Source: Candidatus Bathyarchaeota archaeon
GTDB taxonomy: Archaea; Thermoproteota; Bathyarchaeia; Bathyarchaeales; SOJC01
Direction: 5' to 3'
Assembly (NCBI GenBank): GCA_020352645.1
Contig: CP070683.1
Location: forward strand, 1,437,222 to 1,471,544
Length of the DNA stretch: 34,323 bases
Position numbers and translations under genes: made by a program. This document shows positions 19,055 to 23,523 of this stretch, one piece after another; position 1 is the first letter of the stretch, and every line of letters begins with the position of its first letter. The notes under the pieces are model-generated. The model was not told where the DNA came from. It did not search any database and saw only the letters and a list, made by a program, of their open reading frames with translations.

Positions 19055-19080
19055 TTCAGAAAAGCTTTTTCCTATGCCTT

Positions 19081-19101
19081 ATCGCTATTACCGTTAGCGA
19101 T
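19081..19101. other. Hairpin after pheT
   Basis: ATCGCTA (19081-19087) and TAGCGAT (19095-19101) are perfect arms with a 7-nt loop, 27 nt after the pheT stop codon. It may stabilise or end the pheST mRNA. No T-tract follows on this strand. Confidence 0.4.
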
Positions 19102-19118
19102 GAAATGAGCAACATAAT

Positions 19119-19325
19119 CCCACCGACACCCTCCGAGAGGGCTCGTGAAGACGGACTTGACAGAAGCTTGCTCTCGAATGCTTGCTTGTGACGAAAAGCT
19201 AACCCAAGCACGAGACACGGTGGGCGCGGGTGCCAAACTCCCACGCCAGAGAGAGCTTAGCCGAGAAGAGCGTTGGCTCCAGCCATGAGGTTGAGTGTTA
19301 GGTGACGTGGGACACAACACCCGCG
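19119..19325 (+). ncRNA. Candidate structured non-coding RNA between pheT and tyrS
   Basis: Two long-range perfect helices abut each other. Helix A is CCCACCG (19119-19125) with CGGTGGG (19218-19224). Helix B is CGCGGGTG (19225-19232) with CACCCGCG (19318-19325). The junction has no unpaired base, so the helices could stack. Inside A lie the hairpin CCCTC-CGA-GAGGG (19129-19141) and the helix CTCGTG/CACGAG (19142-19147/19209-19214). Inside B are TGGC/GCCA and GTGTT/AACAC stems. No convincing protein is encoded on either strand. I cannot match it to RNase P, SRP, 5S, C/D or H/ACA RNA. The strand is not certain; + is assumed from the flanking genes, and a 5' leader of tyrS is the alternative. 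The surrounding 19055-19387 spacer otherwise holds only the hairpin above and a TATA-like CTTTAAGTTTAC (19337-19348) for tyrS. Confidence 0.6.
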
Positions 19326-22191: not shown

Positions 22192-22488
22192 CTAAATCCG
22201 GGCAGATCTATCTTGAGGTGTTTTCGCTTCTTCAACGACTCTCTTGCCAGCAGCGACCTCGTCAACCGAGTGAATGGTTGCTCCCATCTCCTCCAGCTTC
22301 TTCTTGACATTCTCGAAGCTGATGTTGTTACCTGCGATTGTGATCTTGGCGTTTTCAACTTGCTGGTCAATCTCGTAGATGATCACGTTTACGCCCTCTA
22401 CGCCTTCCAAATCGCTCAGGGCAACAGAAATCTCAACCACGGTTGGCTTGTGGGGCTTTAGGACGTCAAGGACAAGCCTTCTTATCAT
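22192..22488 (-). CDS. DUF211 family protein
   Basis: The 98-residue protein begins MIRRLVLDVLKPHKP and continues with a ferredoxin-like beta-alpha-beta pattern (SDLEGVEGVNVIIYEID, then NISFENVKKKLEEMGATIHS). This matches the archaeal DUF211 family, small multimeric proteins proposed to bind metal ions or small ligands; the function is not established. The start is ATG 22488. AATTTAAAAC at 22521-22530 on this strand is a TATA box that predicts transcription about 12 nt before the start. It converges with dnaG. Confidence 0.85.
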   Translation of the reverse strand: MIRRLVLDVLKPHKPTVVEISVALSDLEGVEGVNVIIYEIDQQVENAKITIAGNNISFENVKKKLEEMGATIHSVDEVAAGKRVVEEAKTPQDRSARI

Positions 22489-22558: not shown

Positions 22559-23263
22559 TCAATCCTCAACAGAAGGTTTAGCGTCCGATTTGTAGAGCCT
22601 TTTTTCGTAAACAGACTTCTTCTTAAGTTTGCCAGAATAAGATGTGGTTATCCTCTTTCTCTGCACGTTTCTAGCTCTCGCCAAAACTCGTGAAACTCTT
22701 GTCTTTGAAGGCTTTCGAGGTCTTCGCGGCCTGGGAGGAACCGGTGTGAAAGCCCTTTGCACAGCCTTTTTTCTTGGTCGCCTTCTAGGAGCTGAAAGCC
22801 TCGCGGCCGAAATCTTTTTGAAAGTAACCGTCCGCTCTTTCAAGTCCACGCTTTGAACATTCCAACCCGCAATTCTCCATGCGTAGCCTTGGGCAGTGGT
22901 TTCGTTCTTTCTCCACCAGTCCTCACTCCTCAAAGCACTGAGCGGCAAGTCTGTCTTGATTATTCCCTCTATTCTCGAGAAGCTTAGCGTAACGATCCTT
23001 GTGAAATTCCCTCTTCGCCACAAGTATTCTCTAAGCGGTCCATACTTTGAACGGCTGCGTCTGGGCGCCACAATTCTCCTTGCACAGTTCAGGCATATGA
23101 GATCTCTCTGGTCACTCCACGAATCTTTGATCATGCAGCTTCTACAGTAGAGTTTTCTACATCTTGAACAACGCCTCAACGAATAAAGGGATAACACTCT
23201 GCCGCAAAGGCAGCATTCATCTTTCATACAAGAAACTAGTTGTCCACACACCTTGAAAAGCAT
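22559..23263 (-). CDS. Double zinc-finger (FYVE/RING-like) protein with DUF7662-like domain and basic tail
   Basis: Eight cysteines form four CxxC pairs at residues 17/20, 32/35, 40/43 and 57/60, the spacing of a cross-brace two-zinc finger as in FYVE/RING proteins. A middle domain (residues about 75-155) has the pattern LREYLWRRG, then SEDWWRKNETTAQGYAWRIA, then GWNVQSVDLKERTVTF, which I associate with the DUF7662 domain of many prokaryotic proteins; this is from memory. The last 75 residues are strongly basic (RPRRPRKPSKTRVSRVLARA), suggesting nucleic-acid binding. The start could be ATG 23299, 23263 or 23227. I chose 23263 because a TATA-like GTATTTGA (about 23290-23297) would place the transcription start just ahead of it. 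Confidence 0.7.
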   Translation of the reverse strand: MLFKVCGQLVSCMKDECCLCGRVLSLYSLRRCSRCRKLYCRSCMIKDSWSDQRDLICLNCARRIVAPRRSRSKYGPLREYLWRRGNFTRIVTLSFSRIEGIIKTDLPLSALRSEDWWRKNETTAQGYAWRIAGWNVQSVDLKERTVTFKKISAARLSAPRRRPRKKAVQRAFTPVPPRPRRPRKPSKTRVSRVLARARNVQRKRITTSYSGKLKKKSVYEKRLYKSDAKPSVED

Positions 23264-23523
23264 ACTGTCGCTGATTATCATGACGATTCTCAAATACATT
23301 CGTGTAAGTTGACAAGACCTGACTACTGCGGACTATCACATATTTCGATTCTCTGTAGGTTGTTCAGATCAGCCTTCGGAGGCTTGCTAGACGACGAGGA
23401 CACTCATTGCATGCGTGGGCATGTATAAAATACAACGTGAATCGCAGGTTCTAAGCTAGGATTCATAAGTCTTTTTTCTAAGCGCAACTAGCTCCACTTC
23501 AAAAGCTTAGAGTGTGATCATAC

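Follow-up and report, generated by a model that had tools for sequence, protein, structure and literature searches.

A structured RNA gene between pheT and tyrS

We analysed a 34,323-nucleotide (nt) stretch of a Candidatus Bathyarchaeota archaeon genome (assembly GCA_020352645.1, contig CP070683.1, positions 1,437,222 to 1,471,544; hereafter the window), in which a 207-nt segment of the + strand (19119-19325) lies between pheT and tyrS. This segment is a genuine structured RNA gene, far from what chance would produce, and very probably encodes two box H/ACA guide units in tandem, directed at the peptidyl transferase centre and helix 69 of 23S ribosomal RNA (rRNA). It consists of two domains, each closed by a long-range helix, here termed a clamp helix. 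The sequence CCCACCG (19119-19125) forms 7 bp with CGGTGGG (19218-19224) and encloses 92 nt, while CGCGGGTG (19225-19232) forms 8 bp with CACCCGCG (19318-19325) and encloses 85 nt. The two helices are contiguous at 19224/19225, with no gap between them.

These abutting helices had been picked out in an original prediction made from the letters alone, which judged their nesting unlikely to arise by chance and proposed covariation among relatives as a check. The helices lie exactly where it had placed them, and the + strand has a folding energy of -81.5 kcal/mol (z = -3.96 relative to dinucleotide shuffles, none of 200 of which folded as well). Compensatory changes are likewise abundant. Across an alignment of 43 relatives, 90.7% of cells are paired, compared to 33-43% when the partners are slid by 1-3 columns, and both sides have changed in 30 of the 44 pairs. 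Double-change cells number 188, against 59 in shuffles (as good in 0 of 500). Clamp helix 1 is paired in 95.3% of cells, with double changes in five of seven pairs, and clamp helix 2 in 93.5%, with double changes in five of eight.

The enclosed stems behave similarly. In a class-wide alignment the lower stem of the first hairpin unit (HP1) is paired in 95.8% of cells, with double changes in all six pairs; in the alignment of 43 relatives, the lower stem of the second unit (HP2) is paired in 93.4%. When aligned alone class-wide, each unit covaries. Within the alignment of relatives G-U cells outnumber A-C cells (133 versus 57), and hence it is the + strand that represents the RNA. An RNA on the - strand was rejected given this imbalance and its weaker fold (z = -2.24).

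Both units have box H/ACA architecture

The geometry of 44 HP1 and 53 HP2 units was measured. In both, a lower and an upper stem flank an internal pocket, an ACA (or ANA) box directly follows the lower stem on its 3' side, and the pocket is complementary to rRNA on either side of a U. The 5' arm of the upper (GA) stem, from pocket to kink-turn, is 10 nt long in all 97 units (44/44 HP1 and 53/53 HP2). The distance from GA stem to ACA box is 15 nt in 44/44 HP1 units; for HP2 it is 14-16 nt in 50/53 and 17 nt in the remaining three. For productive archaeal H/ACA guides the published values are a 10-bp GA stem and a spacing of 14-15 nt to the ACA (PMC4652768). The kink-turn core letters are invariant, with the exception of one HP1 position (42/44) and the variable 2n position. 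The RNA thus resembles canonical archaeal box H/ACA small RNAs in its kink-turn, 10-bp GA stem, ACA box, 14-15 nt spacing and pocket. It differs in that most canonical RNAs consist of a single hairpin whose ACA is close to the 3' end, whereas the ACA boxes of the Bathyarchaeia RNA lie within closed junctions.

The pockets match helix 69 and the peptidyl transferase centre

We searched complete 16S and 23S rRNAs of relatives for the pocket letters, using E. coli numbering by our own count, which agrees with PMC2584109. The HP1 pocket (GACGG/ACCCA) perfectly matches one site only in 16S and 23S rRNA, within the peptidyl transferase centre (UGGGU-UUAGA-CCGUC). For the HP2 pocket (GAGAGAG/GUUA), a helix 69 segment, UAAC-UCUGA-CUCUCU[U/C], was the best 23S match in 5/5 genomes tested; other matches were weaker and rich in G-U pairs. 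When aligned 23S rRNA was scanned with weighting by conservation, helix 69 likewise came top for HP2, and permuted guides did as well in 0 of 40 cases; a few guides were mis-extracted in this conservation-weighted scan, which we treat as supporting evidence only. Permuted guides only rarely reach the known sites (about 0.01 each).

In Haloarcula, 23S rRNA contains only three pseudouridines (E. coli 1915, 1917 and 2586). Two Haloferax H/ACA hairpins have been proposed as their guides, HP1 for 2586 and HP2 for 1915/1917 (PMC2584109). The two target gaps left unpaired by the Bathyarchaeia pockets contain exactly these three positions. We consider the target matches convincing because of this coincidence and because the hairpin order is the same in Haloferax. 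Both targets (helix 69 and 2580-2594) are nearly invariant among relatives, and compensatory guide-target change is therefore unusable as a test.

A first HP1 target, GGGUAAGUUCCG (23S, approximately E. coli 1948-1961; the best scan match), was rejected because the site varies without any change in the guide: the rRNA reads GUG...ACG in five genomes (G237, G238, G246, G091 and G094), while HP1 guides of family f27 keep ACCC and CGG.

We propose that the guide gene would be transcribed rightward between pheT and tyrS. HP1 would pair with 23S CUGGGU-[U2585 U2586 AGA]-CCGUC and present U2586, and HP2 with UAAC-[U1915 C U1917 GA]-CUCUCU, presenting U1915 and/or U1917. In each unit the kink-turn would be bound by L7Ae and the ACA box by Cbf5; L7Ae, Cbf5, Nop10 and Gar1 would presumably assemble on each and turn the presented uridines into pseudouridine. 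HP1 would thereby account for pseudouridylation of U2586 and HP2 for that of U1915 and/or U1917, although we infer the exact uridine within each gap. The individual parts are listed in Table 1.

Table 1 Elements of the double H/ACA locus, in window coordinates.
Element	Position	Strand	Observation
Putative B recognition element (BRE)/TATA element GAAAAGCTTTTTCC	19059..19072	+	Just 3' of pheT stop; GAAA..TTTAT-like box similarly placed in most homologues; probable promoter
Probable transcript 5' end AGCGATGAAATGAGC..., leader	19095..19118	+	Putative start site; leader kept in several families
Clamp helix 1, 5' arm CCCACCG	19119..19125	+	Partner 19218-19224
Small hairpin CCCUC-CGA-GAGGG, 5' part of clamp-1 junction	19129..19141	+	Minimum free energy fold; short or absent in other families
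HP1 H/ACA lower stem, 5' arm	19142..19147	+	Partner 19209-19214
HP1 5' guide GACGG	19150..19154	+	Complement of 23S CCGUC, E. coli 2590-2594; letters highly conserved
HP1 upper (GA) stem, kink-turn (A 19164; U-G-A 19189-19191), apical stem-loop	19155..19199	+	Kink-turn A, U, G 44/44
HP1 3' guide ACCCA	19202..19206	+	Complement of 23S UGGGU, E. coli 2580-2584; four letters 44/44, one 43/44
HP1 lower stem, 3' arm CACGAG	19209..19214	+	Covariation
HP1 ACA box	19215..19217	+	A 44/44, C 43/44, A 44/44
Clamp helix 1, 3' arm CGGTGGG	19218..19224	+	Covariation
Clamp helix 2, 5' arm CGCGGGTG	19225..19232	+	Partner 19318-19325
HP2 H/ACA lower stem, 5' arm CCCACG	19240..19245	+	93.4% of cells paired
HP2 5' guide GAGAGAG	19249..19255	+	Complement of 23S CUCUCU[U/C], E. 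coli 1920-1926; 46-52/53 per letter
HP2 GA stem, kink-turn (A 19264, G 19265, C 19283, U-G-A 19286-19288), apical stem-loop	19255..19296	+	Kink-turn letters 53/53; stem covaries
HP2 3' guide GUUA	19297..19300	+	Complement of 23S UAAC, E. coli 1911-1914; G 53/53, U 50/53, U 51/53, A 38/53
HP2 lower stem, 3' arm CGTGGG	19306..19311	+	Covariation
HP2 ACA box	19312..19314	+	15 nt after GA stem here; in relatives, ANA box 14-17 nt after
Clamp helix 2, 3' arm CACCCGCG	19318..19325	+	Covariation

Insertions resembling archaeal 23S introns were seen at helix 69/71 (approximately CTCTC^TTAAGG) in several Bathyarchaeia (L260, L267, L269, L090, L263, L266 and L274). They fall within the target of the HP2 5' guide, and guiding there should therefore need spliced rRNA.

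Distribution and gene context

A blastn search of 61 related genomes detected homologues in 46. The aligned relatives served to build a covariance model, which was run on 256 Bathyarchaeia genomes, 120 of them good ones, and matched in 215 of the full set and in 114 of the good ones, almost always as one copy. Thirty records carrying the HP1 DNA pattern were re-tested with the model; the bacterial ones gave no match, their patterns being chance occurrences. A true match of 177 bits (L165:1594-1801, - strand) lies on a contig labelled Candidatus Njordarchaeum, probably a misbinned Bathyarchaeia contig.

Outside Bathyarchaeia, the HP2 model matches 75 genomes at E<=0.01, of which the weakest may be chance. 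The tandem arrangement is also present in other Thermoproteota, with HP1 often 20-130 nt upstream of HP2. In one genome (L219) HP1 (1356-1440, -) and HP2 (1501-1625, +) are divergent genes on opposite strands, and the units are therefore modular and separable. Families f10, f11, f12, f14 and f15 (e.g. L217, L223, L225, L227) possess HP2, with HP1 undetected by an HP1-only model. The 23S target around 2586 is intact in those of them whose 23S rRNA was readable; either HP1 has been lost there or it is too diverged.

The usual neighbourhood is pheS-pheT-RNA-tyrS, and the RNA is co-oriented with pheT wherever pheT was found. In some relatives tyrS is kilobases off or absent from the fetched neighbourhood, with the RNA retained. 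Most homologues have a GAAA..TTTAT-like box upstream of the gene, and many have a further TTTTAAGT-like box between the RNA and tyrS. The RNA is thus probably a separate gene of its own, given its variable distance to tyrS and its own promoter-like box. The sequence GCGATGAYATGAGC (19095-19109) is conserved approximately 25-30 nt downstream of the TATA-like box. It is C box-like and is retained 5' of the clamp in several families; family f7 has a nearer TATA-like box in its place.

Weighing the guide assignment against its rivals

Several observations weigh against a modification guide. Five target nucleotides are unpaired in each of HP1 and HP2, instead of the canonical two-nt UN gap, and the first two letters of the HP1 3' guide lie opposite non-pairing U's. 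In the conservation-weighted scan the 2586 site of HP1 ranked second (some guides being mis-extracted), and the permutation significance of a single target is modest, with a match by Watson-Crick pairs only anywhere in rRNA at 0.034 for HP1 and 0.02 for HP2. Furthermore, this assembly lacks the 16S and most of the 23S rRNA of its own genome, and the targets were therefore taken from relatives. We do not count the wide gap as excluding, because a gap longer by one letter has been published for Haloferax HP2, the model of which likewise needs an extra unpaired target letter (PMC4652768).

The main rival accepts an H/ACA-type ribonucleoprotein particle (RNP) and gives it a different task, namely that of a pre-23S folding or assembly chaperone pairing at helix 69 and the peptidyl transferase centre without modifying them, in the manner of eukaryotic snR30/U17. 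The five unpaired letters in place of two would suit such a role, as would an ACA locked within a junction by the clamps and the near-universal presence of the RNA in single copy. It is nevertheless improbable: both gaps contain uridines known as haloarchaeal pseudouridines, the Haloferax precedent for an additional unpaired letter applies here also, and the ACA and pocket spacing is that of active guides. Two further rivals place the RNA outside the H/ACA class altogether. The original prediction had considered a long tyrS leader, and an undescribed regulatory RNA or 5' leader controlling tyrS would agree with the many genomes in which pheT and tyrS directly flank the RNA on the same strand. 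However, the RNA is not always directly upstream of tyrS, being kept where tyrS is kilobases away or not found nearby; it has its own TATA-like box upstream, with a further TTTTAAGT box before tyrS, and its architecture is that of H/ACA RNAs. The leader was hence rejected on synteny and promoter-like boxes, and we regard control of tyrS as highly improbable. A divergent RNase P, signal recognition particle (SRP) or other Rfam-listed RNA would be an archaeal housekeeping RNA of similar length range, and can practically be dismissed. No Rfam 15 family matched, either at the gathering threshold or at E<=10, and the true RNase P RNA (RF00373, C1:1029435-1029618, 118 bits) and archaeal SRP RNA (RF01857, C1:1433648-1433976, 147 bits) are found elsewhere in the same genome. 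The original prediction, which had put forward the Rfam search, was right in setting RNase P and SRP RNA aside; its view that the RNA fits no known small RNA class does not stand, as both halves follow H/ACA rules, with pockets that correspond to known 23S pseudouridine sites.

The clamp helices

The standard H/ACA fold does not include the clamp helices. These helices form junctions by closing each unit beyond its ACA box, and equivalent closing helices are visible in homologues from other Thermoproteota (e.g. L321, L323, L326 and L338). A tentative and rather unlikely proposal is that they define a distinct closed H/ACA form, widespread in Thermoproteota, with the ACA held within the junction and two RNPs side by side. 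Helix 69 and the peptidyl transferase centre might then be bound and checked or modified jointly as the 50S subunit assembles, and a single pocket might serve both U1915 and U1917. The RNA raises a testable structural question, that of the role of its clamps.

Relation to known archaeal guides

The Haloferax volcanii HP1/HP2 double guide, known as sR-h45, is a close parallel. Its hairpins (also Hvo1/Hvo2, PMC4652768) follow the same order, with HP1 for 2586 and HP2 for 1915 and 1917 (PMC2584109). In contrast, the hairpins of the Bathyarchaeia RNA abut; each of them is clamp-closed. HgcG/Pf7/Pab40 of Thermococcales (RF00064) and Afu4 of Archaeoglobus also have adjacent H/ACA hairpins, with stem III guiding the equivalent of E. 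coli 1915, but possess three hairpins rather than two. The haloarchaeal HP1/HP2 have been described as homologous to Pf7 stems II and III (PMC2584109). By complementarity, the targets of the Bathyarchaeia RNA come in the same hairpin order as in this HgcG/Pf7-Haloferax lineage. There is no RF00064 match at E<=10, and common descent with the lineage is therefore proposed only.

Double H/ACA guides are thus a kind already known in other archaea, and new for Bathyarchaeia as far as the literature was searched. The RNA provides this abundant archaeal class with a probable guide for its helix 69 and peptidyl transferase centre pseudouridines. It also connects the Bathyarchaeia guide with the same gene of other Thermoproteota and with haloarchaea, which suggests one ancient archaeal rRNA guide retained in most lineages tested. 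The covariance model is ready for use as that of a family absent from Rfam 15.

Elsewhere in the window, an open reading frame with a DUF7662 domain (22559-23299, -) adjoins one encoding a DUF211 protein (22192-22488, -).
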